NCBI GenBank assembly: GCA_937968025.1
Contig: CALBSL010000084.1
Coordinates: 1 to 11,726 of the forward strand
Reading direction: 5' to 3'
Source of the DNA: an uncultured bacterium
Lineage (GTDB): Bacteria; Patescibacteriota; Patescibacteriia; 2-12-FULL-60-25
Length of the DNA stretch: 11,726 bases
Of this stretch, positions 1-11,726 are shown piece after piece. Each line of letters opens with the position of its first letter. Within the stretch, counting starts at the first letter, position 1. The notes under the pieces were generated by a model. It was not told the origin of the DNA, made no database searches, and saw nothing but the letters and a program-made list of their open reading frames with translations. The translations under genes and the position numbers were made by a program.

Positions 1-50
1 GATCTACACAGGCGAAGACACTCTTTCCCTACACGACGCTCTTCCGATCT
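1..50 (+). other. Illumina P5/TruSeq adapter contamination (not genomic)
   Basis: Bases 1-9 are the end of the P5 flow-cell sequence, 10-17 (aggcgaag) are an 8-base index, and 18-50 are the 33-base TruSeq read-1 primer ending in CTTCCGATCT. The match to this well-known synthetic oligonucleotide is complete. The contig end was therefore not trimmed and genomic sequence starts at 51. Any reading frame entering this part is artificial. Confidence 0.98.
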
Positions 51-1417
51 TTGGTGGATCCTCCTCCGCTAGGAAGTGGGCAGCGCGTATCACTCGGATC
101 AAAAATGGTGATGGGGAGCGACTCGCCATTCAGGAGGTGCGCCAATCGTGATCCGCCATAGATGGAGGGGAGAATGCCGATCCCGTTGCAGCCAAGGTTG
201 TAGTAGAGCTCAGCGTGGCAAGGGTCCTGCCCAATCAACCGAATACGATTGGGGGTGTATCCCATGAGACCGTGCCAACGATAGAGGAGCGGCTGACGAG
301 CATCGTCAGGACGCAGTCGTTTTACGCAGGCTTGAAGACGAGCGCGCATGCCGTCTGGCATCGCCTCTGTGCGGTTGTAGTCGCTGAGTGTTGGGAGCTC
401 TGCTTCTGGCTCACCCCAACACAAGAGACTCGTGCCCGGCCCGTGTGGCCGCCGTGTCATGTAGGCGTAGGGCGTATTGCCGCCGTATTCGCCTTCGATG
501 TAGCTCATGGCAGTTGGTGGCGCTTCTGGACGGACGTAGCCAATCATGTAGGCGATCGTCGGGTCGATGGAGGCATGAAACCGGTAGTTAATATCTACGC
601 CTTCCTCTGAACGGAGATCAAAAGACTCAAATCCGTTCGTGCAGAGCACGACCGAGGCCGCATGAATAGCGTGGGTCTTTCCTACGATCACCCGCGTGTC
701 ACGTCCAAGACGGAGCTCTTTGACGGGAGTTTCTTCCAAAATGGTAAATCGATCAGGAAATTGCGTGAGCAAGAGCTCAGCCAACTCTTCGCAGAGAGCG
801 GCGCTGTTGGTCACGCCTTTTTGTTCGGCTTGTGCGCCAATAAAATCATGATTTGGCGTTTCGAGGAGGGTAAGGAGAGCGGCATGAGGAAGGAACGTCA
901 CCTGCTCACGTTCGGCGGCGGAGAGACGGAGGGAGGCGGTCTGTTCTTCGGCGAGATAGATTGGGTGCATGCGCAGTCCTGCTTTGGCTCGTAGGCGATT
1001 GGTTTCAAAAAACGCGCGAACGGTGTCGATCGTTGAAAACCCCACGTATCCCATGAAGCGATGCAGGGGAGTGGTGAGCTGAAACCTTCGCTTGAGCTCG
1101 TCGAGAAGATCCCAACCAGATTCTACGCCGCGTACAGCATCGGCCGCTCGAGTGAGCCCGTATTCGCGCACCATGTCAGGAAACGAGCGTTCGAAGTAGG
1201 ACGTGATCTGCCCAGCGTTGTGCCCGGTTGCGCCATGGGCAATGCGCGTTGCTTCAAGCAGCAGCACGGACCGCTGGGTGCGTAGGAGCGTAAACGCCGC
1301 CGTCATCATGCCAGCGATCCCGCCACCGATAATCACCACGTCTTCACGTCGGTGTTGATCCAGCGTATACAAAGGACGACGCCGGTTGAGGTGGTGGAGC
1401 CAAGGAGATTGGTTCAT
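51..1417 (-). CDS. FAD-dependent oxidoreductase (DAO family), 3' end missing
   Basis: Predicted flavoprotein of the D-amino-acid oxidase/glycine oxidase-like (DAO) superfamily, which oxidises amines or amino acids. The substrate cannot be read from the sequence. The N-terminus has the Rossmann dinucleotide fold: VVIIGGGIAG with the GxGxxG glycines at residues 31-36 and the ribose-binding Glu at 55 (VLLLEA). It is followed by GATGHNAGQ, typical of the family. Near the C-terminus, YYNLGCNGIGI matches the second FAD-contacting segment. 455 native codons are present. Beyond them the frame runs through a junction Lys and DRKSVV into the adapter, so the true C-terminus is unknown, although the family is usually not much longer. 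The ATG at 1417 is 7 bases after a TATACT -10 box on this strand and has no Shine-Dalgarno site, so the mRNA is probably leaderless. The gene is divergent from the BrkB-like gene. Confidence 0.9.
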
Positions 1418-1424
1418 TGGTGGC

Positions 1425-1446
1425 AGTATATCACGAGTGCTATACT
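1425..1446. promoter_or_regulatory. Divergent promoter with mirror-image extended -10 boxes
   Basis: AGTATATCAC-GA-GTGCTATACT is a near-perfect inverted repeat (9 of 10 positions match). Each arm is itself an extended -10 element. TGCTATACT (1438-1446) faces the BrkB-like gene, and TGATATACT (1433-1425 on the minus strand) faces the FAD oxidoreductase. No good -35 box is visible on either side, which is typical of extended -10 promoters. Expected transcription starts fall at about 1418 (minus) and 1453 (plus). That gives a leaderless message for the oxidoreductase and a leader of about 6 bases for the other gene. The symmetry could also serve as a regulator site. Confidence 0.7.
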
Positions 1447-1458
1447 CCGTTTATCTTT

Positions 1459-2301
1459 ATGTCTGCCACGACTGTACTGCGCTTCTGGCGCTCGGTGGGA
1501 TTTCGTTGGGTGGGGGCACGGTGTTGGGAGCGGGGAGCGGCGATGGCCTTTTTTGCTCTGTTTTCCATCGCGCCGCTGTTTGTATTGCTCCTGTCGCTCC
1601 TCGATCGTATTTTTGGTGAAGGTATTGCGAGGAACGAGGTTTACGTGACGTTGGTGCGTGGGCTCGGCGTTGAAACCGCTGACGCGATTCGCGCCCTTCT
1701 CCTTCAGCCGAACCTGTTTCAGGGGGATTGGATCACGATTGCTGGAAATATGGCCCTGACCGCCGTTGGTGCGGCCGCATTGTTTCGGCATATGCAGACC
1801 TGTCTTCAGGTGTTATGGGGCAGAACCGAACAGCGCTCTCATCCTGTCCCGCGATTTTTCCGAGGGTTCCTTCGCTCATTCGCGACGATGGGCGCCCTGG
1901 TGATTGCGGCGGTCGGTGGGTTTTTCTTGCTGGCATCCGCGCTCTTACTGGGACCGGTGATCAAAGAGGCGATTTTTGGTCAGTCTATCCCAACATTGTG
2001 GGCGCTCTTCTCGAACTGGTTTGTGTTTGCAGGGGCACTTGGAGTGTTTAGCGTGTTGTATTTCACTCTCGCGCCTGAAGCGCCATCGTTTCGTCGGTTG
2101 TGGACCTCCTTAGCTGTGTTGTTGGCGGGGTTGTTGGCTGCCAAAGCTCTGATCGCTCCGCTCACTCATTCGAAGAGCTTGTTCTCGTTGTTTGGAGCTG
2201 GATCGGCCGTGGTCTATCTCTTGCTGTGGTGTTTTCTTCTTTCGCAGCTGTTCTTGTTTGGAGCCGTGGTGGGGGCGGTGCGTACTGAGCAAGAGGGTTG
2301 A
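1459..2301 (+). CDS. YihY/BrkB family inner-membrane protein
   Basis: Integral membrane protein of the YihY/virulence factor BrkB family (old name 'ribonuclease BN-like'). The molecular role is unsettled; transport or envelope integrity has been proposed for the family. The 280 residues contain about six hydrophobic segments at roughly 27-48, 92-110, 142-166, 180-203, 216-234 and 244-274. The family's N-terminal signature is visible as AAMAFFALFSIAPLFVLL, and its C-terminal one as FGAGSAVVYLLLW followed by FLFGA. I chose ATG 1459 over an in-frame GTG at 1417. The GTG would lie upstream of the -10 box, and its 14 extra residues are not family-like. There is no Shine-Dalgarno site, and the start is 12 bases after TATACT. 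The stop codon overlaps the -35 box of the next gene. Length is typical of the family. Confidence 0.88.
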   Translation: MSATTVLRFWRSVGFRWVGARCWERGAAMAFFALFSIAPLFVLLLSLLDRIFGEGIARNEVYVTLVRGLGVETADAIRALLLQPNLFQGDWITIAGNMALTAVGAAALFRHMQTCLQVLWGRTEQRSHPVPRFFRGFLRSFATMGALVIAAVGGFFLLASALLLGPVIKEAIFGQSIPTLWALFSNWFVFAGALGVFSVLYFTLAPEAPSFRRLWTSLAVLLAGLLAAKALIAPLTHSKSLFSLFGAGSAVVYLLLWCFLLSQLFLFGAVVGAVRTEQEG

Positions 2302-2326
2302 CAGAAGAGGAAAAACACGATAGTAT
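2298..2326 (+). promoter_or_regulatory. Sigma-70-type promoter of the tail-anchored protein gene
   Basis: A perfect TTGACA at 2298-2303 is followed after exactly 17 bases by TAGTAT (2321-2326, 4 of 6 to consensus). The -35 box overlaps the stop codon of the preceding gene. The start of transcription should be near 2333, giving a leader of about 24 bases that contains AGGAGG. Confidence 0.72.
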
Positions 2327-2342
2327 CGCCGCGGTGTTCTGT

Positions 2343-2348
2343 AGGAGG
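2343..2348 (+). promoter_or_regulatory. Strong Shine-Dalgarno site AGGAGG
   Basis: AGGAGG sits 8 bases before ATG 2357, close to ideal spacing. It decides the start of this gene. It is notable because most recognisable genes in the window have no such site. Confidence 0.85.
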
Positions 2349-2356
2349 AAGCGTTC

Positions 2357-2863
2357 ATGGGTGGTGAGGTGAATATGTTTCGTTTGAAGGTGGGAACCAA
2401 GTCGGACGCTGATGCGGCCGCCAAGGGTGATGGGGCTGAGCTCCCTGTTCCTGTCCGTCGATCGTCAACGCTCGATGGGCTGCTCAATGGGTTCACGGAT
2501 TTCAAGGACGCCGTGGCGCGGCGTCCGCCCACGCTGCGCGCCGGTTCCAGGCTCGGTGCGGAGGACCTCGTGGTTCCTGAAGAGCGGCCGTTCGATCCCG
2601 TGAAGGCCGCCAACGCCAGGTGGAAGGCCATGGTCACTCGTAACCCGACCGTCGTCACGTCGCTCAAGCCGCTCGCGCCTGACGTCGAGAAGCGCAGAGC
2701 GCTGGAACGCATGGCGATGGAGCGTACCTCGTGGCAGAAGTTCTGCGATGCGGTGCGCGAGCGTCCCAGCTGGATGGAGGTCCGCTACATGCTTCTGGGC
2801 GCCTTCATGCTGCTCTTCTCCATCACCTTTCTCGCGTACGCCATTCGCGTGGCGGGCATCTGA
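2357..2863 (+). CDS. Unrecognised protein with C-terminal membrane anchor
   Basis: I do not recognise this 168-residue protein. Residues 1-140 are polar, rich in Ala, Arg and Pro, and probably only partly ordered. They include a basic stretch at 110-143. Residues 144-163 (start YMLLGAFMLL) form a single strong transmembrane helix that ends five residues before the C-terminus, so the bulk should face the cytoplasm as a tail-anchored protein. The gene has its own promoter, AGGAGG site and terminator, so it is transcribed alone. It lies just before ftsI, where ftsL stands in many cell-wall clusters. However, FtsL has the opposite arrangement (membrane helix near the N-terminus), so I do not call it FtsL. 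Base composition looks more GC-rich than in the flanking conserved genes. Confidence 0.8.
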   Translation: MGGEVNMFRLKVGTKSDADAAAKGDGAELPVPVRRSSTLDGLLNGFTDFKDAVARRPPTLRAGSRLGAEDLVVPEERPFDPVKAANARWKAMVTRNPTVVTSLKPLAPDVEKRRALERMAMERTSWQKFCDAVRERPSWMEVRYMLLGAFMLLFSITFLAYAIRVAGI

Positions 2864-2866
2864 CCC

Positions 2867-2893
2867 CCGAGCTCTCTCTGAGCTCGGTTTTTT
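2867..2893 (+). terminator. Rho-independent terminator after the tail-anchored protein gene
   Basis: CCGAGCTC (2867-2874), a 5-base loop TCTCT, and GAGCTCGG (2880-2887) form a perfect 8-bp stem followed by six T. It begins 4 bases after the stop codon at 2863 and separates this gene from ftsI. Confidence 0.92.
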
Positions 2894-2906
2894 GTTGTGC
2901 TTGCGG

Positions 2907-2912
2907 TATACT
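2907..2912 (+). promoter_or_regulatory. -10 box TATACT of the ftsI-murF unit
   Basis: TATACT ends 6 bases before the GTG start codon of ftsI at 2919, so transcription should begin at or within a base or two of the start codon. No convincing -35 box is visible; its expected place lies inside the preceding terminator stem. The same hexamer is used by the oxidoreductase, the BrkB-like gene and tRNA-Glu in this window. Confidence 0.6.
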
Positions 2913-2918
2913 ACAGAC

Positions 2919-4733
2919 GTGAAGTGGACTTCTTCTGGAACAAGACGAGGAGGGTCTTGGTACTCAGCGCTTTCCGGTGATCCTCGTTTGTATTGGTTGG
3001 CGGCGGGGTGTGCCTTGCTTGGCATCACGTTGCTTGTGCGATTTTTTCAGTTGCAGGTGCTGGAGCACAAATCGTATCAAGTGCTTGCGTCTGGGCAACA
3101 TTCACTCGAGCGAGCGCTCATGCCACGTCGTGGAACGATCTATGTGCGTGATCGGGTCGACGGGGCGCTCCATCCTATCGCCACAGACCGTGATGCCTGG
3201 CAGATTTATGCGGTTCCTCGTGAAATGAAGGACCGTGCCGCCATCGCTGAACAGGTGTCGCAGATTTTACAAAAGCCAAAAGAGGAATTTATCGATAGGC
3301 TTCTCGCACCTACCACGACCTACATGGTGCTTGATCGTGATGCTGCTTACGAGAAAGTTGAAGCATTGCGCGCTGCTCGTTTGCCGGGCATAGGTGTCCA
3401 AAAAGGCCTCGCTCGCCTGTATCCCGAGTCTGGATTGGGCGGGCAAATGCTTGGTTTTGTTTCGTTGAATGAGCGGAATGAGCGAGTTGGTCGGTACGGA
3501 CTCGAAGGGTATTTTGATGATGTTCTCCGAGGAAAGGCCGGAAGAATCGAGGCAGAACGTGATGCAACGGGTCGTCGGCTCACGATTGGGTCGATCAACC
3601 TCGAAGCGGCAGAAGATGGTAAAGATATCGTGCTCACGATCGATCGCCAAATCCAGTACATTACCTGTGCAAAAATCAAAGAAGCTGTCGATCGATTCGG
3701 GGCGACGGGTGGATCGGTAGTGATCGTGCGTCCGACGGATGGCTCGGTGTTAGCTATGTGTTCGGCGCCGGATTTTGATCCGGCAAATTTTCGATATGTT
3801 GACGATGTAGCGGTGTTCAATAATCCGATCACGTTTTATCAGTATGAACCGGGGTCCATTTTTAAGGCGGTCACGTTGGCGGCGGGGCTTGATGCAAAGA
3901 AAATTTCGCCATCGACGGTGTATAACGACACGGGCGCTGAAAAGATCGATGATTTTACGATCAGAAATTCAGACAAGTTGGCCCACGGTCTGCAAACCAT
4001 GACGCAGGTGTTGGAGAAGTCGTTAAACACAGGGACGATTTTCGTGGAACGATTGCTCGGCAAGGAGCTGTTTCGCACGTATGTTGAGCAGTTCGGCTTT
4101 GGCGAAAAAACCGGCGTACCATTATCGCCGGAAGTAAAGGGGGATATTTCACAGATCTATAAACGGGGAGAGATTTTCGGGGCGACCATTTCGTTCGGCC
4201 AAGGGATGGCGGCAACACCCATGCAAATGGTGATGTCCTATGTTCCGCTCGCGAACGGTGGTATTCGGTATGCGCCGCGTCTGGTGGAGGAGTATCGTCG
4301 TGCGGATGGAACGGTTGAAGCGGTGACGCCGAAGCCGCTCGGGCAGGTTATTTCTGAGCGCACGAGCCGACTCATCACGGCGATGCTCGTGAACGTGGTC
4401 GAGAACGGGCATGGAAAACGGGCGGGTGTCCCGGGGTATTACATCGCCGGAAAAACAGGCACGGCGCAGATTCCGAACCCAAACGGTCAAGGGTATTTGA
4501 AGGATGCCACGATTGGGTCATTCGTGGGTTATGGGCCAACCGATCAACCGCAGTTTGTGATGCTTGTGAAGATTGATCGCCCAACCACCGTGCAGTACGC
4601 CGAGTCTTCCGCCGCCCCAATTTTTGGGGAACTCGCGAAGGAATTGGTTCGTATTTTAGAGATTCCTCCAGAGCGTGCCGTAAAAACCGTCGTTGTTCCT
4701 CCGACGAGTTCAACGACCAGCGTGCAGCCGTAG
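2919..4733 (+). CDS. ftsI: Class B penicillin-binding protein (FtsI/PBP2-like transpeptidase)
   Basis: Peptidoglycan D,D-transpeptidase that cross-links stem peptides outside the membrane, most likely at the division septum. In the 604 residues there is a short cytoplasmic N-terminus and one membrane anchor at about 24-46 (WLAAGCALLGITLLV). Next comes the pedestal domain, beginning with the conserved RRGTIYVRD at 70-78, and then the transpeptidase domain. All three penicillin-binding motifs are intact: SxxK at S313-K316 (EPGSIFK), SxN at S368-N370 (KSLN) and KTG at 512-514 (AGKTGTAQ). No PASTA domains follow; the C-terminus is a Pro/Thr/Ser-rich tail. I chose GTG 2919 because an upstream in-frame start at 2748 would run through the preceding gene and its terminator. 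There is no Shine-Dalgarno site. The stop overlaps the murF start by one base (TAGTG). An elongation-type PBP2 is the alternative; linkage to murF favours FtsI. Confidence 0.93.
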   Translation: MKWTSSGTRRGGSWYSALSGDPRLYWLAAGCALLGITLLVRFFQLQVLEHKSYQVLASGQHSLERALMPRRGTIYVRDRVDGALHPIATDRDAWQIYAVPREMKDRAAIAEQVSQILQKPKEEFIDRLLAPTTTYMVLDRDAAYEKVEALRAARLPGIGVQKGLARLYPESGLGGQMLGFVSLNERNERVGRYGLEGYFDDVLRGKAGRIEAERDATGRRLTIGSINLEAAEDGKDIVLTIDRQIQYITCAKIKEAVDRFGATGGSVVIVRPTDGSVLAMCSAPDFDPANFRYVDDVAVFNNPITFYQYEPGSIFKAVTLAAGLDAKKISPSTVYNDTGAEKIDDFTIRNSDKLAHGLQTMTQVLEKSLNTGTIFVERLLGKELFRTYVEQFGFGEKTGVPLSPEVKGDISQIYKRGEIFGATISFGQGMAATPMQMVMSYVPLANGGIRYAPRLVEEYRRADGTVEAVTPKPLGQVISERTSRLITAMLVNVVENGHGKRAGVPGYYIAGKTGTAQIPNPNGQGYLKDATIGSFVGYGPTDQPQFVMLVKIDRPTTVQYAESSAAPIFGELAKELVRILEIPPERAVKTVVVPPTSSTTSVQP

Positions 4734-6151
4734 TGTTTACCACGGACTTGAAGCGTGGGACCGGTGTCGCTATGCTCACGATATCTATGTCCTCGATCCT
4801 CTCTCTTTTGACGGGCTATCTCGGCAGCAGTGCCCGTATCGTGCTTGAACGGGAACGTCCGCTCATTATTGCGCTCACAGGTTCGGTGGGGAAGTCCACG
4901 AGTCGGCAATGCGTCGGCGCCGTACTTGGAGGTTCGCTTGAATATCGCGAGGGGCTTCGTGTGCCAACAAAGAACTACAATAACCAACTGGGTGTTCCGC
5001 TCACGATTTTTGCGCTTCCAGCCCCTGGTCGATCTCCTGTTCGCTGGGTGAAGCTTCTTTGGCGTGCGACGTGCGGACGGTTTGGTTTGTGGCGCACCGG
5101 AGCGAAGACCTTTGTTCTCGAGATGGGTGCGGACCATCCGGGCGATATTGCCTACCTTACTTCGCTGGCACGTCCGTCTATTTCCGTGGTGACGGCAGTG
5201 ACGCCTGAAGATCCAAACTGGGCTCCGGTGCATGCGGCAAACTATCCAACCATCAACGATCTTGCTCATGAGAAGGCGACGCTCGTTCGTGCCTTGCCGA
5301 CGAATGGAACGATGGTGCTCAATGCAGATGATCCGCGGGTGCTCGCCATGCGCTCCGAAGCGCCAACGGCACAGCTGATCACCTTTGGGACCGCTGAATC
5401 CGCCGACGTGCGCATTCTGTCGATGCGCATTCGTACGGAAGACACGTCCGCCGGTGCGATGCCGACAGGTCTCGAGGTGGAACTGCGCGTCTTACAACAA
5501 AAACAGACGGTAGTTGTTGAGGGGGTGTTTGGACGCTCGGTTGCATATGCCTTAGCGGCATCAGCGGCCGTTGGTCTTGCGCTCGATATCTCAACCTCAG
5601 AAATGGCCGAAGGTTGGAAGCAGATTCGTCCGCTCCCTGGACGTACGCGACTCATTCCAGGGGTCAAGAAGACAATGCTCTTCGATGATAGCTATAACGC
5701 CTCGCCGGTCGCGGTGCTCGCCGCCCTTCGTGATCTTGCCTCTGTGGAGGTGGATCAGGGAAAGCAACGCACCATCGCCTGTCTTGGAGAGATGCGTGAG
5801 CTCGGTCCTTCGGCGGAGATGTTGCACGCAGAGATCGGCAAACAGGCGGCTCAACTAGGCATCGATGTACTGGCGGTGACGGGGGCATTCGCCGAAGCGT
5901 ATCGACGCGGAGCGCTCGAAGGCGGCATGACCGAAGACCGGGTACGAATCTTCGCGGATACGCCGGAACTTGGCGAATGGGTGCAGGACATCCTACGACC
6001 AGGCGATCTCGTGCTCGCCAAGGCATCTGAAGGAGGGCATCACACCAAGGGGGTCCGGATGGAACGGGTCATCAAAGAACTGATGGCTGAACCGGCGCAG
6101 GCGGAAACGTTGCTGTGCCGCCAAGAACACGTGTGGCAGACGCGGGCGTAA
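4733..6151 (+). CDS. murF: MurF-like UDP-MurNAc-tripeptide:D-Ala-D-Ala ligase lacking the usual N-terminal domain
   Basis: Cytoplasmic ATP-dependent Mur ligase that adds D-Ala-D-Ala to the peptidoglycan precursor. Visible motifs are the ATP-binding loop TGSVGKST (49-56), NNQLGVP (83-89), EMG (130-132), HEK (179-181), NADDPR (197-202), DDSYNASP (318-325), GEM (352-354) and LAKASEGG (428-435). In typical MurF the ATP loop comes after about 100 residues of substrate-binding domain. Here it starts near residue 50, preceded only by a hydrophobic segment (about 19-31), so that domain is absent. The C-terminal KASEGGHHTKGVRME also departs from the usual KGSxxxxME form. The start is taken as the GTG overlapping the ftsI stop; ATG 4772 is a possible alternative. 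Neither has a Shine-Dalgarno site, so translation probably depends on coupling to ftsI. Another Mur-ligase-family amide synthase is a less likely identity. Confidence 0.87.
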   Translation: MFTTDLKRGTGVAMLTISMSSILSLLTGYLGSSARIVLERERPLIIALTGSVGKSTSRQCVGAVLGGSLEYREGLRVPTKNYNNQLGVPLTIFALPAPGRSPVRWVKLLWRATCGRFGLWRTGAKTFVLEMGADHPGDIAYLTSLARPSISVVTAVTPEDPNWAPVHAANYPTINDLAHEKATLVRALPTNGTMVLNADDPRVLAMRSEAPTAQLITFGTAESADVRILSMRIRTEDTSAGAMPTGLEVELRVLQQKQTVVVEGVFGRSVAYALAASAAVGLALDISTSEMAEGWKQIRPLPGRTRLIPGVKKTMLFDDSYNASPVAVLAALRDLASVEVDQGKQRTIACLGEMRELGPSAEMLHAEIGKQAAQLGIDVLAVTGAFAEAYRRGALEGGMTEDRVRIFADTPELGEWVQDILRPGDLVLAKASEGGHHTKGVRMERVIKELMAEPAQAETLLCRQEHVWQTRA

Positions 6152-6156
6152 ACACG

Positions 6157-6188
6157 ACACCTCTCGAACCATCGGGAGGTGTTTTTTT
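6157..6188 (+). terminator. Terminator of the ftsI-murF unit
   Basis: ACACCTC (6157-6163) pairs with GAGGTGT (6176-6182). The stem extends inward through a G-T pair and two G-C pairs, leaving a 6-base loop AACCAT, and a run of seven T (6182-6188) follows. It lies 5 bases after the murF stop. Confidence 0.93.
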
Positions 6189-6192
6189 GGAA

Positions 6193-6219
6193 AGAAAAGA
6201 CCCACTCGAGCGAGTGGGT
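6193..6219 (-). terminator. Terminator of the minus-strand putative lipoprotein unit
   Basis: On the minus strand ACCCACTCG (6219-6211), a two-base centre CT, and CGAGTGGGT (6208-6200) form a hairpin followed by C and then T-rich sequence TTTTCTTT. It begins immediately after the stop codon at 6220. It is back to back with the plus-strand murF terminator and insulates the convergent units. Confidence 0.82.
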
Positions 6220-6489
6220 TCAGCGATCGTTCGGGCGGCCGCCGTCGCGGGGCGAGGGGAGACCGCCGTCGGTGTCGGACGGGATCGTGATGAGGAGCGT
6301 GGCCGGCGTCGGCCCGGTGGGGTTGCCCGCCCGGCTTCGAAGTCCGCAGTTCTCGGCCTGGAGGCGACCGTTCTCGCGCTCGAGGGTGAGGGTGCGGCTG
6401 AGGAGCGTCTGCACGTCGACAGGTGACAGCCCGACGAAGCAGCCAGAGGTGACGATGATGGCGAGGATGAGGAGAAAGGGGCGGTTCAT
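6220..6489 (-). CDS. Small unrecognised secreted protein, putative lipoprotein
   Basis: An 89-residue protein I do not recognise. The N-terminus MNRPFLLILAIIVTSGCFVG is a signal peptide. Its Cys17 is preceded by T-S-G, a weak but plausible lipobox, so the protein may be lipid-anchored outside the membrane. Residues 24-52 are predicted helical and heptad-like (TLLSRTLTLERENGRLQAEN). The rest is rich in Pro, Gly, Asp and Arg and probably disordered. AGGAGAGG lies about 7 bases before the ATG and fixes the start. It is second in a two-gene unit, 26 bases after the preceding gene. The terminator starts directly after its stop. A simple N-terminal membrane anchor is the alternative to lipidation. 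Confidence 0.72.
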   Translation of the reverse strand: MNRPFLLILAIIVTSGCFVGLSPVDVQTLLSRTLTLERENGRLQAENCGLRSRAGNPTGPTPATLLITIPSDTDGGLPSPRDGGRPNDR

Positions 6490-6515
6490 GTGACCTCTCC
6501 TGAGTTGGAAGTGTT

Positions 6516-7103
6516 TCAGCGCTTGAGGAGCCCGGGATGGCTCCTGGCGAGCTCCTCGCGGAGCATGTCCAGACCTCCCGTCTGCGTGTTGAGGTAGCGC
6601 AGGAGGATGACAGCACGATTGGGCAACGGCATGGCGTCCGGCGTTCGCTCCCCAGTCGGGACCCCGAGGAAGAGCTCCAGAACAGCGAACTGTGCGGGGA
6701 CGAGCTTCTTGAGGGCCTCGTAGAGGTCCGAATGGGGGGCCTCGAGGCTGAAGAGGCGCTCCGCGCTCTTGACGTGCGTCGGGAGGCGCTTCATGAGAGT
6801 GAGGTAGAACTCGTAGGTGCTCGACTCGGGGATCTGTGAGGTTTGGGCGTTCGTCGCCGGGACCTCGTGCCAGATCGCGAGGATCTGGTTGAGTACCCCT
6901 GTGTCGGTGATACCGGTGCAGTAGGTGATCATCTCAGGGGTGAGGAAGTCGTACGAGCCGCTGAGGCGGTATTCGCTCGAAGTGAGCAGATCCTGAAGTC
7001 CGCTCACGGCGTTTCCGATGTTGACCGTCTTGGTCGGCTCTCGCAGGGCGTAGAAGGTGATGCAGGCGATGGTCGCGGTGAGTTTGATGTTGAAGCGGTC
7101 CAT
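6516..7103 (-). CDS. Unrecognised 195-residue protein
   Basis: I do not recognise this protein. It begins with a short basic start (MDRFNIK) and a hydrophobic stretch at about 8-20 (LTATIACITFYAL), which may be an inefficient signal or an N-terminal anchor. The rest is a mixed, mostly helical soluble sequence without obvious catalytic motifs. The start is supported by AGGAG 4 bases before ATG 7103 and by a strong promoter about 90 bases upstream. It is co-transcribed with the putative lipoprotein gene downstream (26-base gap), so the two products may act together at the cell surface; that is inference. GC content by eye is higher than in pepF or ftsI. An overlapping frame on the opposite strand is judged a shadow because only the minus strand has promoter, Shine-Dalgarno and terminator in the right order. 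Confidence 0.75.
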   Translation of the reverse strand: MDRFNIKLTATIACITFYALREPTKTVNIGNAVSGLQDLLTSSEYRLSGSYDFLTPEMITYCTGITDTGVLNQILAIWHEVPATNAQTSQIPESSTYEFYLTLMKRLPTHVKSAERLFSLEAPHSDLYEALKKLVPAQFAVLELFLGVPTGERTPDAMPLPNRAVILLRYLNTQTGGLDMLREELARSHPGLLKR

Positions 7104-7146
7104 GGTGCTCCTGGGTGCGCTCTGCCGTGGCTATCAGTGCTCTCCG

Positions 7147-7161
7147 GTCCCACTGTGGGAC
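7147..7161. repeat. Perfect palindrome in the leader of the 7103-6220 unit
   Basis: GTCCCAC-T-GTGGGAC is a perfect inverted repeat of 7-bp arms around one base. It lies about 25-40 bases after the predicted transcription start (about 7184, minus strand) and about 45 bases before the start codon. It could be a protein-binding operator or, as RNA, a small leader hairpin. Confidence 0.55.
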
Positions 7162-7190
7162 GAGGGCTGATGCGTGTGCAAGAGTGGCTG

Positions 7191-7219
7191 ATTCTACACA
7201 GAATCCGAGGTTTTGTCAA
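7191..7219 (-). promoter_or_regulatory. Strong sigma-70-type promoter of the 7103-6220 unit
   Basis: On the minus strand a perfect TTGACA (7219-7214) is followed after 17 bases by TAGAAT (7196-7191, 5 of 6 to consensus). This is the best promoter in the window. The predicted start is near 7184, leaving a leader of about 80 bases. An inverted repeat GATTCT-ACAC-AGAATC (7190-7205) overlaps the -10 box and could be an operator. Confidence 0.85.
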
Positions 7220-7267
7220 GGGATGCCGGCAGAACAGGCAATTCGATCCACGTGCGTTTCTTGGTAT

Positions 7268-7289
7268 AAAAAATCCCGGGTGTACCGGG
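7268..7289 (-). terminator. Terminator of the coiled-coil protein gene
   Basis: On the minus strand CCCGG (7289-7285), loop TACAC, and CCGGG (7279-7275) form a 5-bp all-G/C stem followed by A and six T. Between the stop codon (7302) and this hairpin lies a C-rich tract (C6-T-C8). Confidence 0.75.
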
Positions 7290-7301
7290 GGGGGAGGGGG
7301 G

Positions 7302-8039
7302 TCAGCTTTCCTCCTTGGGAGGTGGATCGGAGAGCGCGTCGAGCTGAGCCTGGGCGATCACGAGGGAGCGCTCGAGATGATCCGCGCTGGCTTTGGCGAG
7401 TGCGAACCCCTTCTTTGCTTCGTCGAGATGAGAGTGCATGGTGAGGAGCTGGATCCTCTGAGACTTGGTTGATCCGCCGGCCGCTCGATGTTCGTCCTTG
7501 GCTCGATTGATGGCCTCGTTGATTCGTCGGAGCTCAGCCTTCTTGGATTCGAGTGTTGCCAGCGCATCAAGATATTCGGCCTTACGCGCTTTCACCCGAC
7601 CTTCCGCCAGGATCCTCTTGATCGAAGGATCGTTCGTGGCGGCGAAAATGAACAGAAGCGCCTTCCGCTCGAGCTCTCTGGCGATGACGATCTCCTGCTC
7701 GCACTGGCGGAGCCTGTCTGTGATCTGCCGCCGAAGCTCGTGCTCGGCGTGCTGCGGTGGAAGAAGCTCGAGCAGGGTGCGCTCGTGCCAGGCCGCCTCG
7801 GCACGAGTTGCGATGGAGCGGAGAGCGGCGACGGCCTTGTCGACCTTCGTCTCCGGGGGCGGAGAGTAAATGAACGGAAACTCGGAAACGGTGGTGAAGC
7901 CGTGCGCATTCAGGGTGTCGAGGAGCTGATTGAGGGACGCGATTTCGAGGCGGAGAGCCTCGACTTGAGCGGCGCGGAACTCGCTGTGGGCGAGCAGCGA
8001 GGGGAGGAGAGGGTACTCGGGATTTGTATTGTTCGACAT
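7302..8039 (-). CDS. Unrecognised coiled-coil protein
   Basis: A 245-residue protein I do not recognise, predicted cytoplasmic: no signal peptide or membrane segment is seen. Most of it is charged helix with heptad-like spacing. Candidate coiled coils lie at about 95-125 (ELRRQITDRLRQCEQEI), 150-185 (ATLESKKAELRRINEAINRA) and 200-235, and it ends in PPPKEES. A Pro-rich break (YSPPPET, 58-64) separates a shorter N-terminal helical part. A structural or scaffolding role is a guess only. I chose ATG 8039 over the in-frame GTG at 8051 because the promoter puts the transcript start near 8057, which would leave the GTG almost no leader. The ribosome site is weak (GTGA about 8 bases upstream). It is a single-gene unit with its own promoter and terminator, though read-through from pepF is possible. 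Confidence 0.76.
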   Translation of the reverse strand: MSNNTNPEYPLLPSLLAHSEFRAAQVEALRLEIASLNQLLDTLNAHGFTTVSEFPFIYSPPPETKVDKAVAALRSIATRAEAAWHERTLLELLPPQHAEHELRRQITDRLRQCEQEIVIARELERKALLFIFAATNDPSIKRILAEGRVKARKAEYLDALATLESKKAELRRINEAINRAKDEHRAAGGSTKSQRIQLLTMHSHLDEAKKGFALAKASADHLERSLVIAQAQLDALSDPPPKEES

Positions 8040-8063
8040 GCGGAATCTCACTTTCCGGGGGAA

Positions 8064-8092
8064 AATGTACTCACGTGAGGGGTTGTTGTCAA
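8064..8092 (-). promoter_or_regulatory. Sigma-70-type promoter of the coiled-coil gene with palindromic spacer
   Basis: On the minus strand TTGACA (8092-8087) is followed after 17 bases by TACATT (8069-8064, 4 of 6). The expected start is near 8057, 18 bases before ATG 8039. The spacer contains the perfect 10-bp palindrome CTCACGTGAG (8070-8079), directly next to the -10 box, a position suited to a repressor. Confidence 0.7.
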
Positions 8093-8129
8093 TGGTTGGT
8101 AGTTGAAACGAGGGGCTGAAACATTGTTG

Positions 8130-9911
8130 TTAGAGCGTGGTGGTTTCGTGGGATGAGGTATCAGCGGTAGTTTCGTCAACGAGGCGCTTGATCCACTCGA
8201 GTCCTCGAATCCAGGTTTTGGTGGATTCCGGATCAAGACCAATCGGAGCCAGGAGCTCTTTAGGGCTCTTTGTGCCACCTTGACTCAAGAGTTCAAGGTA
8301 GTTCTCTTGAAAGCCTGCAGGATTCAGCAGAGACTCTTCGTACAGGCAGCAGGTGATGAGCTCGCCGAATGCGTAGGCGTACACATAGAACTCTCGATCA
8401 AAAAAGTGGCTGATACGACTCCATGAATGTCTGTACCCCGGGGAGATGTCGATCGCTTCGCCGAAGAGGCTCTTCGTGGCATCGATCCACAGGGTTTGAT
8501 ACTGCTCAGGTGCGGCATAGCCGTGCTCACGCACGAAGCGATGGGCGCTCTGCTCAAAGCGGTAGTAGTTGATCTGTCGAAAGACGGTCGCAAAGATCTC
8601 TTCGATTTTGCTTGCGTGAAACGCCATCCGTTCTTTTGGATCCGTAAGTTCACGGCGCAACGCATCAAATACAAGCATTTCGCTAAAGGTGCTCGCCGTT
8701 TCGGCAAGGGTGAGAGGGGTGGTGAACTGGAGCTCGCCACGTGGTCGCGCGAGCATCGTGTGGATCGCATGCCCCAGCTCATGCGCCAGCGTTAGCACGT
8801 CGCTGATTTTTCCCTGAAAATTCAAGAAGACATACGGATGGAGATCCGCTGTCATGAACTGACAGTAGGCGCCGCTCTGCTTGCCCGCCGATGGTTCCGC
8901 GTCGATCCACTGATGCTCGAAGAACAGGGACGCGATTTCCGCCATCTTTGGGGAGAAGGCGTGGAAGGCCTTCAAGACGCACTCTCTTGCTTCAGCGAAC
9001 GTATAGGTTTTTTCGACCGTCGCGAGCGGTGCGTAGAGGTCATACTCAGTGAGTTTTTCCAGACCTAGATGTTTCGCTTTCCAGGTGTAATATCGTTGAA
9101 ACAGTTCGCGGTAGGCCTCGACGGATTCAGCTAGTGCCTCGACGGCAGCAGGGGAAATCTCATTCGTCTGGTGGCGAAGCTGTTCGGGAAATTCGTATCG
9201 ACGATACCGATCGGTCATCGCCTTATCTTTAATGATCGTTGTATAGATGAAACTACGGCGTAGAGCGTCATCGCCTAGGCCCTTCCCAATAGCCTCCGCG
9301 GCTTCAGCGCGTACGCGACGATCGCTATTGGTTTGATTGTGGAGCAGCGTTTCCAACGTGCAAAGCACGCCGTTCACTTCGAACGCTTTTGTTGCGTCCT
9401 CCTGCTCAAAGAGCGCGTAGAATGCTTCGCGACCCGTTTGTTGAAGGTCTGCAAGCAAGCGTTCCTCGGCTTCGGGGAGCTGATGCCGCTTCGCTAGGGA
9501 GATGTTTTCTAGATAGTGATGATAGCGTGCTGTTTCGGGGGCGGTCACAAGTGATGCAAAACGCTCACTCGGGAGTTGAGCGAGTTCGAGCTTCACCCAG
9601 ACGAGCTCATTCTCGACCTGAAGCACTCGTTCGCGCATGAGACGCAGAAACCCTTCGCGAGCAGGATCACTCACGTCAGTCGTGTAGCGCAGGAACGCAT
9701 AGTTCTCCGGTTTGTCCGCCGTTTGCACAATACGTTCGTATCGCTCAAGGAGGTCTCGAATCTGATCAGCGGATAGATCGGCGAGCTTGCCTTTATAGTC
9801 ACGAACAAGCGACTGCGCTTCGGCGGTCGCCGTGGCAAGAGTTGTGTCGATCGCTGGATCTTGTGGACTATCGAATAGATCACGTAAGTCCCAACGAGGA
9901 GGAGTGGTCAT
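8130..9911 (-). CDS. pepF: Oligoendopeptidase F (M3 family zinc metallopeptidase)
   Basis: Cytoplasmic zinc peptidase that cleaves oligopeptides, likely in peptide recycling or nutrient use. The 593 residues match the usual PepF length of about 600. The zinc site HELGH is at 377-381 in LAHELGHAIHTM, and the third zinc ligand is Glu404 in LAETASTFSE, the expected M3 arrangement. The downstream substrate-binding region has the conserved Tyr/His-rich stretch near 493-512 (GYRHSW, SHFFDREFYVYAYAFGE). The N-terminal M3 helical domain (about 1-200) is present, so the gene looks complete. The start is taken as ATG 9911; no Shine-Dalgarno site or clear promoter precedes it, so it may be read through from the protease gene 95 bases upstream. 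No terminator is seen before the next minus-strand promoter. Confidence 0.95.
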   Translation of the reverse strand: MTTPPRWDLRDLFDSPQDPAIDTTLATATAEAQSLVRDYKGKLADLSADQIRDLLERYERIVQTADKPENYAFLRYTTDVSDPAREGFLRLMRERVLQVENELVWVKLELAQLPSERFASLVTAPETARYHHYLENISLAKRHQLPEAEERLLADLQQTGREAFYALFEQEDATKAFEVNGVLCTLETLLHNQTNSDRRVRAEAAEAIGKGLGDDALRRSFIYTTIIKDKAMTDRYRRYEFPEQLRHQTNEISPAAVEALAESVEAYRELFQRYYTWKAKHLGLEKLTEYDLYAPLATVEKTYTFAEARECVLKAFHAFSPKMAEIASLFFEHQWIDAEPSAGKQSGAYCQFMTADLHPYVFLNFQGKISDVLTLAHELGHAIHTMLARPRGELQFTTPLTLAETASTFSEMLVFDALRRELTDPKERMAFHASKIEEIFATVFRQINYYRFEQSAHRFVREHGYAAPEQYQTLWIDATKSLFGEAIDISPGYRHSWSRISHFFDREFYVYAYAFGELITCCLYEESLLNPAGFQENYLELLSQGGTKSPKELLAPIGLDPESTKTWIRGLEWIKRLVDETTADTSSHETTTL

Positions 9912-10006
9912 AGAAACGGGGAAGAGGTTTGAAGAGGAGTGTGAACAGAACGCAACCAGGGTGCAAGTAGCTATGGTTGGCGTAGTCGGAGTGATGAAGA
10001 TCGTGT

Positions 10007-10741
10007 CTACTCGTTAAAGAAAGTCGCTATAATTGGTTCGCGAGAAATGGCTTCAGCTAGGTTGATACATAGGCCAAAACGCCAACCAGATCTTATAATT
10101 GTTCTAGAGGTTATTTTACCCCCGGTACTCTCGTAGAAGTCCTCGAAGTCCTCTCTTTCTTCTGTATAGGCCTCCGATTGTCCAAGACAAATGCCAATCA
10201 AAGCATCTTCAAACTTAACTCTGTGCGTAAGAAGTGGCGCGCCACTTTGACCCTTTAGTATCGGAAAAAAAACTTCGATGATCGGATGGTCTTTTTTAAG
10301 CCAGTTATCTTCATACAGCGAGGTCACGTTCCCAAAAAAGCTACGCGCAATGATTGCGGAAACCGTTGCATCCGTTGATCGAGTCTGCGCCAATGGATAG
10401 CCTAGACTGGTCACCTCAGAGTTTAGGTGGATGGCTTGAGTGGGTTTTTTGAAGACCGCACTTGGCTCAGTATGCTTACTTGGATCTGTGGGGGTAATGA
10501 TCGCAAGATCAAAATGTTCGCTTCTCCAGATTACAGTCGCTGGGATCAGGTAGTGGTAACGGGTTTTGTTTTTGTGGTCAGTCTCGTCTTTATCAGTAAT
10601 AAAAACCAGATCTAGATCCTCAACGACATGTTTAGCGGTAAGGTATGATGACTTTGAAATGGCAAAACAAGTACCTACGCAGGTTAGGCTTTTGTTGGTC
10701 ACAAAGCGAATCGTTAGATGGAAGTCAGATATGGTACTCAT
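10007..10741 (-). CDS. Trypsin-like (S1-type) serine protease, soluble
   Basis: Predicted trypsin-fold serine peptidase of 244 residues with an apparently intact triad. His38 lies in LTAKHVVED, Asp78 in EHFDLAIITP and Ser166 in GQSGAPLL. These spacings suit the family, and CVGTCFAIS before the His matches the usual GTGF-type strand. No signal peptide, membrane helix or PDZ domain is visible, so it is not a typical DegP/HtrA and probably acts in the cytoplasm; the substrate is unknown. I chose ATG 10741. The longer frame to a GTG at 10888 would start inside the tRNA terminator hairpin, and its extra 49 residues are low-complexity. By eye the gene is clearly more AT-rich than its neighbours and uses different codons. 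It lies next to a tRNA gene, so recent acquisition is plausible. Stand-alone trypsin-like domains also occur as effectors in conflict systems, but no partner is seen here. Confidence 0.82.
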   Translation of the reverse strand: MSTISDFHLTIRFVTNKSLTCVGTCFAISKSSYLTAKHVVEDLDLVFITDKDETDHKNKTRYHYLIPATVIWRSEHFDLAIITPTDPSKHTEPSAVFKKPTQAIHLNSEVTSLGYPLAQTRSTDATVSAIIARSFFGNVTSLYEDNWLKKDHPIIEVFFPILKGQSGAPLLTHRVKFEDALIGICLGQSEAYTEEREDFEDFYESTGGKITSRTIIRSGWRFGLCINLAEAISREPIIATFFNE

Positions 10742-10871
10742 GGATGAGGATAGCTTACAGCTGTGTAGTAGATTATCAAGATCATTCCCAGCTTTTGAGG
10801 AAGAAGTGTATTGGGATCCTTTCTTGTTGCAAGCAAAAAAATCTTGGCTTACCTCCTCTGTGCTCTCTCTT

Positions 10872-10914
10872 ACCAACAAAACCACCACCCGGTTTGGGTG
10901 GTGGTTTTGTTGGT
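10872..10914. terminator. Bidirectional terminator hairpin fused to the tRNA-Glu 3' end
   Basis: ACCAACAAAACCACCACCC (10872-10890), loop GGTTT (10891-10895) and the exact complement at 10896-10914 form a perfect 19-bp stem, 20 bp if the outer T-A pair is counted. The top 9 bp are G/C-rich and are flanked by AAAA and TTTT, so it can terminate in both directions. On the minus strand it lies directly after tRNA-Glu, and the stem includes the tRNA discriminator base and CCA. Confidence 0.88.
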
Positions 10915-10985
10915 AGCCCGTAGGGGAATCGAACCCCTATTTTCCCCGTGAGAGGGGGATGTCCTAGCCATTAAACGAACGGGCC
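10911..10985 (-). tRNA. tRNA-Glu (anticodon CUC), CCA encoded
   Basis: The minus strand folds into a standard cloverleaf. The acceptor stem is GGCCCGT with ACGGGCT (first pair G-U). The D-arm is GTTTAATGGCTAGGAC. The anticodon stem TCCCC/GGGGA has loop CTCTCAC, giving anticodon CTC. The T-arm is GGGGTTCGATTCCCC. The discriminator base is A and the CCA end is encoded. The overall sequence closely follows the tRNA-Glu pattern, including the TTTAATGGCTAGGAC region. It reads GAG codons. Confidence 0.95.
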
Positions 10986-11002
10986 GTAGATTGACGATCG
11001 AG

Positions 11003-11031
11003 AGTATACGGAGGAATGGGAAGATTGGCAA
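11003..11031 (-). promoter_or_regulatory. Promoter of tRNA-Glu
   Basis: On the minus strand TTGCCA (11031-11026, 5 of 6) is followed after 17 bases by TATACT (11008-11003). The -10 box ends 17 bases before the mature tRNA 5' end at 10985, leaving about 10 bases of precursor leader for RNase P to remove. Confidence 0.75.
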
Positions 11032-11046
11032 GAACCGGCTGTCTCC

Positions 11047-11075
11047 TTGCTATTCTGTGGATTTTGTGCCAGAAT
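11047..11075 (+). promoter_or_regulatory. Candidate promoter of the 11110 gene
   Basis: TTGCTA (11047-11052), 17 bases, then CAGAAT (11070-11075) preceded by TGC (extended -10) is the best-fitting promoter. It would start the transcript near 11082. An inverted repeat CTATTCTG/CAGAATAG (11050-11057, 11070-11077) spans the -35/-10 region. A second reading uses TGCTATTCT (11048-11056) as the -10 box. Neither is strong. Confidence 0.4.
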
Positions 11076-11080
11076 AGGGT

Positions 11081-11109
11081 GCCTCTTTTTTTGAGGCGGG
11101 GAGTGTACC
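11081..11109 (+). promoter_or_regulatory. Leader hairpin and Shine-Dalgarno site of the 11110 gene
   Basis: GCCTC-TTTTTTT-GAGGC (11081-11097) forms a 5-bp hairpin with a seven-T loop. Directly after it, GGGGAG (11098-11103) is a Shine-Dalgarno-like site 6 bases before the GTG start. The hairpin at the very 5' end may stabilise the message or limit ribosome access. Confidence 0.5.
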
Positions 11110-11598
11110 GTGGGATCAATCGTCATTGTTGCTCTCGTCATCATCTCAGGACTCATCGCCTTGCGAGGGTATCGCTGGGCGACTTCAGCACCGACGAAGC
11201 TCGAGAAGCTGGGCTACATCAGCGGTCTCGAGGATGCGGGGAGTCGCGAAGAGGACGTCTTGGCTCGGTTCAAGGATTCGGGTCACCCGATCCATCGCGC
11301 CTCGCGTTCGCCTCCGTCAGCGTCTGAGCTTTCGGCGGCAAAGCTGGCTGAGACGATGGTGAAGATCAGCACCCTGCAGGCGCTGCTCAGCAACTCCTCC
11401 TTGCCGATGTCTGCCGCTGCTCGAACCCGTCACCATGTGGCGCTCGAGGGGCTTCGTGCGCAGCTGCAGGACCTGACGCGAAGCGAAGGGGACGCGCGGT
11501 CCGACGCCCTGCGCTTCAATCAGCTCCTGTGTCGCTTGCGGGGGATCGAGCTGGACATTAGCCGTCGCCAAGAACCACCGCCCACCCTTGAGGCCTGA
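11110..11598 (+). CDS. Unrecognised small protein with N-terminal membrane anchor
   Basis: A 162-residue protein I do not recognise. Residues 3-19 (SIVIVALVIISGLIALRGY region) form one transmembrane helix or uncleaved signal anchor, followed by a basic/polar segment. Residues about 75-150 are helical with heptad-like Leu spacing and may form a coiled coil, and the tail is Pro-rich. The start is GTG 11110, supported by GGGGAG six bases upstream. The gene is single, followed after 5 bases by a strong terminator. In size, composition and signals it resembles the other unrecognised genes of this window more than the conserved ones. Confidence 0.76.
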   Translation: MGSIVIVALVIISGLIALRGYRWATSAPTKLEKLGYISGLEDAGSREEDVLARFKDSGHPIHRASRSPPSASELSAAKLAETMVKISTLQALLSNSSLPMSAAARTRHHVALEGLRAQLQDLTRSEGDARSDALRFNQLLCRLRGIELDISRRQEPPPTLEA

Positions 11599-11603
11599 TC
11601 TCA

Positions 11604-11634
11604 ACCCTTGTTCTCGCTGAACAAGGGTGTTTTT
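11604..11634 (+). terminator. Terminator after the 11110 gene
   Basis: ACCCTTGTTC (11604-11613), loop TCGCT, and GAACAAGGGT (11619-11628) form a perfect 10-bp stem followed by G and five T. It ends 8 bases before the next start codon. Confidence 0.94.
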
Positions 11635-11642
11635 ATTCTGAT

Positions 11643-11726
11643 ATGTCCACCTTGTTTGACGCCGCCCATCCCGATATCCGCAAGCCCCTCGGCGATCGGC
11701 TACGTCCGAAGGAGTTTTCTGGCTAT
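11643..11726 (+). CDS. rarA: Probable RarA/MgsA-type AAA+ ATPase, first 28 codons only
   Basis: Only the N-terminus is inside the window: MSTLFD, then PLGDRLRPKEFSGY. The pattern of a short start followed by PLxxRxRPxxxxxY is the conserved opening of RarA (replication-associated recombination protein A, MgsA/WRNIP1 family). RarA is an AAA+ ATPase that acts at stalled replication forks. The same opening is shared to some degree by RuvB and clamp-loader subunits, so the identity rests on little sequence. There is no Shine-Dalgarno site. The start lies 8 bases after the T-tract of the preceding terminator, so any promoter would have to overlap that terminator (TATTCT at 11634-11639 is a weak candidate). 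Confidence 0.7.
   Translation, partial: MSTLFDAAHPDIRKPLGDRLRPKEFSGY

Follow-up and report, generated by a model that had tools for sequence, protein, structure and literature searches.

The analysed window is a stretch of 11,726 nucleotides (nt) from an uncultured bacterium of the Patescibacteriota (contig CALBSL010000084.1, positions 1 to 11,726), a metagenome-type contig with a GC content of 0.56. Here, we focus on how translation starts are marked in its genes and in those of its relatives. According to an original prediction, made from the sequence, the recognisable genes lack a Shine-Dalgarno (SD) site and may be translated from leaderless transcripts, and the unrecognised genes carry SD sites and promoters of their own.

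The genes of a FAD-dependent oxidoreductase (DAO; 29..1417, minus strand) and a BrkB-like membrane protein (1441..2301, plus strand, ATG at 1459, T at position -1), together with ftsI (2907..4733, plus strand, GTG at 2919), have no SD site, and the hexamer TATACT was found, as predicted, 7, 12, and 6 bases before their starts (1430-1425, 1441-1446, and 2907-2912, respectively). An SD site is also missing from murF (4733..6151, plus strand), the GTG of which overlaps the ftsI stop codon, from the gene of a pepF-like M3 oligoendopeptidase (8130..9911, minus strand, T at -1), and from the gene of a trypsin-like protease (10007..10741, minus strand, GC 0.44). No proximal site was found before rarA, the 5' end of which (11643..11726, plus strand, T at -1) is cut by the window end. 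The duplexes with the anti-SD were -3.1 kcal/mol or weaker in all of these genes except rarA, where -6.4 kcal/mol was obtained from the AAGGGTG of a preceding terminator stem. TATACT is absent before pepF and rarA, and the hexamer would support leaderless starts for only three of the seven recognisable genes. The start of the protease is uncertain: the listed GTG (10888) lies inside a stem-like repeat, and the ATG at 10741, with TATCCT about 5 nt before it, is likelier. The 28-residue rarA fragment matched no NCBIfam family, and its name is that of the original prediction. TATACT, the -10-like hexamer of the three leaderless-looking genes, is also the -10 hexamer of a promoter-like sequence (TTGCCA-17-TATACT, 11031-11003) of the tRNA-Glu(CTC) gene (10911..10985, minus strand).

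The five unrecognised genes all have C at position -1. Gene 2357 (2357..2863, plus strand; 168 amino acids, with a hydrophobic C-terminal stretch by eye) follows the SD site AGGAGG (2343..2348) and a promoter TTGACA-17-TAGTAT (2298..2326, plus strand). On the minus strand, a small open reading frame (ORF) with a lipoprotein-like N terminus by eye, gene 6489 (6220..6489), is preceded by AGGAGAGG (6501-6494), and gene 7103 (6516..7103, 195 amino acids) by AGGAG (7112-7108); a promoter TTGACA-17-TAGAAT (7191..7219, minus strand) lies upstream of both. Gene 8039 (7302..8039, minus strand; coiled-coil-like by eye) has a promoter TTGACA-17-TACATT (8064..8092, minus strand), and gene 11110 (11110..11598, plus strand; GTG start, 162 amino acids) follows GGGGAG (11098..11103). 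These SD sites and the three TTGACA promoters with their 17-nt spacers were thus all found where they had been predicted. The anti-SD duplexes of the five genes were -10.2, -8.3, -6.6, -5.4, and -8.6 kcal/mol, the first belonging to gene 2357, the last to gene 11110, and the -5.4 kcal/mol to gene 8039, for which weak pairing only had been expected. The third-position GC content (GC3) of the unrecognised genes was 0.72-0.89 (0.77, 0.89, 0.86, 0.74, and 0.72 for genes 2357, 6489, 7103, 8039, and 11110, respectively) versus 0.56-0.62 in five recognisable genes; the values for the rarA fragment and the protease were 0.70 and 0.43. The number of promoter-like sites in the window (five, three of them with TTGACA) was not unusual, with a shuffle mean of 4.6. 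Terminator-like stems numbered 16 against a shuffle mean of 11.9, and four stand directly after genes 2357 (2867..2887, plus strand), 6489 (6219-6200, minus strand), 8039 (7289-7275, minus strand), and 11110 (11604-11628, plus strand).

Shine-Dalgarno frequency and coupled features in relatives

In the species collection, the pepF protein of the window had a single match, with 70% identity, in an assembly of Patescibacteria (locus L001, genome G001), and an FtsI search among 192 relatives of G001 gave G016 as the closest among the matches listed (73%). The sample used for counting consisted of stretches of 18 relatives (1.85 Mb, 1721 genes called with our own gene caller). The GTDB family of G016 contains 41 genomes; G169, G176, G113, and G064 lie outside it. 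Only the codon score and the type of start codon were used to pick starts; therefore, upstream signals could not bias the SD count. A gene was scored as conserved if its protein had a match (E < 1e-10, at least 50 residues) in the sample of another genome, as first if no co-directional gene ended 30 nt or less upstream, and as SD-led if AAGGA, AGGAG, GGAGG, or GAGGT occurred inside bases -18 to -4.

Equal SD frequency in both gene classes, which would have refuted the original prediction, was not found in this sample of relatives. Among the first genes of the 18 genomes, SD sites preceded 14 of 491 conserved versus 95 of 524 non-conserved genes (Fisher test, 1.7e-16). Conserved first genes do not rise above background: the count was 14/440 in the 12 best-sampled genomes, with 10 hits in the upstream and 16 in the antisense control. 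The non-conserved first genes of the same genomes gave 91/496, with 21 and 15 hits in the respective controls. The same motif rule detected SD sites at 17 of 42 annotated Escherichia coli starts and none in their upstream control. The counts for conserved versus non-conserved genes were 12/313 versus 54/278 in ORFs of at least 200 codons, 13/435 versus 77/437 within the family of G016 only, and 8/289 versus 60/300 when the count was limited to contigs of 318 kb or more. Genes conserved in at least two genomes had SD sites in 2/260 cases, and the frequency by number of genomes matched (0, 1, 2-3, 4-6, and 7-13) was 75/427, 5/196, 2/105, 0/36, and 0/12. Anti-SD duplexes of -7 kcal/mol or stronger were found in 32/491 conserved genes (control 29), 105/524 non-conserved genes (control 39), and 30/545 operon-internal genes (control 38).

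Non-conserved genes exceeded their upstream control in G016 (12/92, control 5), G001 (19/104, 4), G028 (8/41, 2), G019 (8/38, 3), G026 (9/38, 0), G014 (13/45, 1), G176 (7/39, 0), and G113 (10/28, 1). The SD excess was therefore present in six of the eight well-sampled family genomes, with the same sign in two of the four genomes outside the family. At the level of sequence, these results confirmed the split by start signal in the window, which was found again in most of the family as sampled.

Several other features were coupled to SD use. The base before the start codon was T in 286/477 conserved first genes without SD (60%) and 222/329 conserved internal genes, versus 14/95 genes of the SD set; the corresponding counts for C were 97/477, 61/329, and 56/95. 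For comparison, T preceded 14% of the 5506 in-frame internal ATGs of conserved genes, and at the 42 E. coli starts T and C occurred 13 and 15 times, respectively. The frequency of A at -3 and -6 was 23% and 29% in conserved first genes (background 25%), and 28% and 39% in conserved internal genes. A TTGAC box 36-80 nt upstream was found for 43/95 genes of the SD set versus 37/477 conserved genes; several of these boxes read TTGACAAAA, with a TA...T box lying about 17 nt further downstream. Among non-conserved genes, SD frequency rose with GC3 (9/257, 27/118, and 59/149 at GC3 z values of <0, 0-1, and >1), and it stayed low in conserved ones (5/268, 2/156, and 7/67). Genes of the SD set are mostly single-gene units: a co-directional gene followed within 30 nt in 7/86 cases versus 153/469 for conserved and 91/410 for other non-conserved genes. 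Under a simple rule, terminators were mildly commoner after them (30/93 versus 104/491 and 69/427, respectively). An enrichment of exported proteins was not seen under a crude hydrophobicity rule: hydrophobic N termini were found in 18/93 genes of the SD set versus 122/491 conserved and 114/427 other non-conserved genes.

The leaderless part of the original prediction stood in part. Of the 477 conserved first genes without SD, 134 had the motif TANNNT at a distance of 5-9 nt from the start and 94 at 10-14 nt (41, 35, and 32 at control distances); the excess at 5-9 nt amounts to about one fifth of conserved first genes, and TATANT was commonest 6-12 nt before the start. In the SD set, the counts were 2/95 and 4/95 (controls 8, 8, and 11). 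A near -10 box thus accompanies a minority of conserved genes, and the wider rule is an SD-free start with T before AUG.

The 3' end of 16S rRNA reads GGATCACCTCCTTT, with an intact anti-SD, in all 21 relatives that gave a full 16S match; these 21 loci cover 9 of the 18 sampled genomes, and the window itself carries no 16S gene. Two tRNAs with a CAT anticodon were found in the samples, both in G001 and both with A directly after the anticodon. Protein bS21, a possible blocker of the anti-SD, had a match in 10 of 12 genomes, four of them above the cut-off, which does not decide the matter.

Relatives, codon usage, and origin of the SD genes

A sensitive search with 249 SD-led or GC3-rich poorly conserved genes gave cross-genome matches for 54. 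The best match was itself an SD-led or GC3-rich gene in 18 cases (counted by hand), and these genes form seven groups. The first is a small gene found at the same site, between rnhB-like and yqgF-like genes, in G010, G013, and G019; the names rnhB and yqgF are our assumption from the protein starts, without a family search. The second and third form an adjacent pair, located next to the rnhB-like gene (G019 and G013) or between murF and the rnhB-like gene (G010 and G019). This pair, at L114:10468-11263, L137:4548-5446, and L138:16558-17432, looks STAS-like by eye, and its two members show a weak mutual cross-match. Protein identity within the three groups was 21-45%, and SD-like stretches preceded all nine members, three of which had their starts re-chosen by eye; the groups are present in only 3-4 of the 41 family genomes. 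The GC3 offset was positive in all 17 entries measured (+0.12 to +0.33; the G028 copies of the pair and L164:15147 excluded), and across 11 sets, the window among them, the mean GC3 of the SD set tracked that of the genome (r 0.81, slope 0.68). We infer that this offset is selected, because at such protein divergence silent sites should have relaxed. G028 (L107:13568-17204) and G176 (L164:9665-16512), the latter outside the family of G016, have in common a gene that looks helicase-like by eye, together with smaller related ones, all of them SD-led or GC3-rich.

The original prediction also suggested that the SD genes may be highly expressed. In favour of this, the codon shift of the SD set points in the direction of ribosomal-protein genes (r 0.75, with a residual of 0.57 after removal of the GC effect; the 95th percentile and maximum of the residual link in random sets were 0.43 and 0.69). 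The ribosomal-protein genes themselves, however, lack SD sites. Strong expression of the SD set is plausible from its codon usage, and the idea that high expression alone suffices to bring about SD use was rejected.

The reading that we consider probable, although not strongly so, is that two start styles serve two gene sets in one Patescibacteria family, the SD genes being native and strongly expressed. It builds on the statistical split, the features coupled to it, the intact anti-SD of relatives, and the SD sites and GC offset kept in several groups. In the default style, used by conserved genes and many others, there would be no SD site and a T directly 5' of the start codon; for part of the first-in-operon genes, the -10 box would lie near enough to leave the mRNA with little or no leader. 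The second style would belong to a minority of units, scattered, poorly conserved, and mostly of one gene, each with an autonomous sigma-70-type promoter with a TTGAC box, a leader of roughly 10-50 nt, and a normally spaced SD site; C would precede the start codon, and GC3 would be raised. Default mRNAs would be started by direct recognition of the start codon and SD mRNAs by anti-SD pairing, and selection would hold a native, strongly expressed accessory set in the SD mode. The five unrecognised genes of the window probably belong to that set. Recognition of default starts may be aided by the preceding T through pairing with A37 of the initiator tRNA; in 2003, Esposito reportedly described extended codon-anticodon pairing at initiation for a chloroplast system, which this would resemble.

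A number of results weigh against this reading. Two well-sampled family members, G021 (3/27, control 3) and G015 (1/24, control 2), had no SD excess, and outside the family none was clear in G064 (1/18, control 0) and G169 (0/2, control 0). T at -1 was weak in first genes of G176 (1/9) and G169 (2/7), as well as G064 (4/12), and the near -10 box concerns only a minority of conserved genes. The codon link is not specific to SD: its residual of 0.57 lies within the random range and below the values of GC3-rich conserved genes (0.86) and GC3-rich non-conserved genes without SD (0.64). Only 4 of 63 ribosomal-protein, elongation-factor, and rpoA genes, most of them operon-internal, have an SD site. 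Of the 54 matched genes, 27 had an ordinary conserved-class gene and nine another gene as best match. Within the seven groups, 5 of 17 starts were re-chosen by eye (two of them in the other four groups), and the murF-side member of G019 has GAGAGGAAG, which is outside the 5-mer rule. Another G176 relative (L164:15147) has GGAAAGGGG alone and no clear SD site, and of the G028 copies of the pair, located at another site, one has GAGGAG well upstream and one no SD. None of the five unrecognised genes of the window was traced in the DNA of relatives, and the partial 16S sequences of the two closest genomes, G016 and G001, do not reach a readable anti-SD. Finally, our gene calling, starts included, contains visible errors (such as at ftsI and the BrkB-like gene of the window), and some truly conserved genes sit in the non-conserved class because the class depends on matches in the samples of other genomes only. 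Our confidence was lowered slightly by the two family genomes without SD excess and the unspecific codon link.

It had also been proposed that the SD set may be acquired, which is now disfavoured. In that case, the SD genes would be recent acquisitions from SD-using bacteria that retain the promoter, SD, and codon usage of the donor, and over time they would shed their leader and SD. Their self-contained, GC3-rich organization and poor conservation fit such an origin, as does their poverty in domains (37 Pfam families among 100 proteins versus 126 among 91 non-SD controls, a contrast exaggerated by conserved proteins missed in sampling, such as RecA and EF-Ts, among the controls). With a mean distance of 0.77, their codon usage is also more alike across genomes than that of conserved genes is (1.01), and closer than SD and conserved genes are to each other inside one genome (0.94); the murF-pepF interval of L001 carries a recombinase-like ORF (by eye). 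However, the three groups keep SD-like stretches despite their low identity, one of them at the same site in three genomes, and the mean GC3 of the SD set follows that of each genome. In addition, the protease, the AT-richest and most foreign-looking gene of the window, has no SD, and the neighbours of SD genes were conserved genes in 90 cases, other non-conserved genes in 91, and SD genes in 32. Recent acquisition as the whole explanation was marked down since related SD genes keep both SD and a genome-tracking GC3 offset, and we regard it as unlikely. A viral or plasmid origin of the tested window genes was rejected, as no relatives appeared in the collections searched: the family of gene 2357 had none in viral contigs or plasmids, that of gene 7103 none in viral contigs, and gene 8039 none in phages. 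Among 100 proteins of the SD set, 54 PHROGs families were matched; of the 25 listed, 24 match one protein and one matches two.

Position might be the only determinant, such that a leadered promoter needs an SD site, a promoter at the start or an operon-internal location does not, and gene class is a by-product. The rarity of near -10 boxes in SD genes and the control-level duplexes of internal genes agree with this. Raised GC3, the preference for C at -1, and the gradient of SD with conservation are not predicted by it, and we hold it to be distinctly improbable. The least likely explanation by far is an artefact, in which the SD set would stem from contaminant contigs or from false ORFs. The assemblies are draft metagenomes and the window itself starts with an adapter; nevertheless, contamination was rejected by the persistence of the split on long contigs, SD genes adjoin conserved genes and have homologues, and false ORFs would lower the SD frequency, not raise it.

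In its strongest form, the preferred reading would place two parallel start systems in each cell, an SD-free one with T before AUG that serves the inherited core and an SD-dependent one for accessory genes that evolve fast, are self-contained, and are strongly expressed; this we put forward only tentatively. If true, an altered initiation state (IF2/IF3 balance or anti-SD accessibility) could shift core versus accessory output at once.

Relation to known initiation systems

Boxes of the TANNNT type near the start mark leaderless genes in Actinobacteria and Deinococcus-Thermus (PMC3160421; PMC12340547). As in those genomes, a -10-like box stands near the start in a sizeable fraction of genes, with SD genes alongside. 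In contrast to them, SD here does not exceed background in conserved genes; it is concentrated in a poorly conserved set with high GC3 and mostly monocistronic genes, and operon-internal genes also lack it. SD-scarce Bacteroidota such as Flavobacterium johnsoniae have an intact 16S anti-SD and mostly genes without SD (PMC6847099; PMC10783764), which is similar to the present case. The transcripts of F. johnsoniae are mostly leadered, with A favoured at -3 and -6 (PMC6847099), whereas T at -1 dominates here without a preference for A at these positions in conserved first genes, and a definable minority of genes does use SD. Within the same broad radiation, Absconditabacteria, Campbellbacteria, Peregrinibacteria, and Wolfebacteria of the Candidate Phyla Radiation likewise have low SD frequencies (2-7%), but they lack CCUCC (PMC10783764, Table 4), which is intact here in 21/21 relatives, with SD use divided by gene class. 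The bound of about 5.5% of all genes, below which SD lies in SD-scarce genomes with conserved CCUCC, belongs to another motif rule, and the present values come from a sample only (14/491, 95/524, and internal genes at control level). Non-SD initiation signals across phyla also belong to the closest known cases (PMC5397173). In the literature searched, mostly without subscription papers and without bioRxiv preprints, no division of SD use between core and accessory genes in Patescibacteria was found, and the available portions of PMC12641178 and PMC6851277 contained nothing on such a start-signal division.

The split gives a simple sequence rule for true gene starts in uncultured Patescibacteria; a gene finder adjusted to a single start signal will get the starts of one set wrong. 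It separates two gene sets that may be under different expression control, suggests why an intact anti-SD is kept in genomes whose core genes do not use SD, and points out accessory proteins that are ready to be studied.

The window contig and homologues of its genes

The left end of the window is an assembly artefact, since bases 18-50 are an exact Illumina adapter; bases 10-17 (AGGCGAAG) are index-like, and we take them to be a sequencing index. Because the 3' end of the 29-1417 ORF runs into the adapter, its final residues are spurious.

Homologues were searched for with genes 2357, 7103, and 11110 of the window. Gene 2357 has ten besides itself, eight of which start at the corresponding position and two at the second methionine; gene 7103 has four and gene 11110 one (69% identity). 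The three are evidently real genes, since homologues exist. A profile of gene 2357 gave no match in the 41 genomes of the family of G016, and proteins 2357 and 8039 gave none in 34 relatives, both searches having no positive genome as a control. The 195-residue protein of gene 7103 (6516-7103) contains a 28-residue stretch that is missing from its four homologues, and in the search with this protein the window's own copy was absent from the listing. Between murF and pepF, the window has three unrecognised genes, unlike the corresponding interval of L001 (1025-9781), which holds a different run of ORFs that includes the recombinase-like one.

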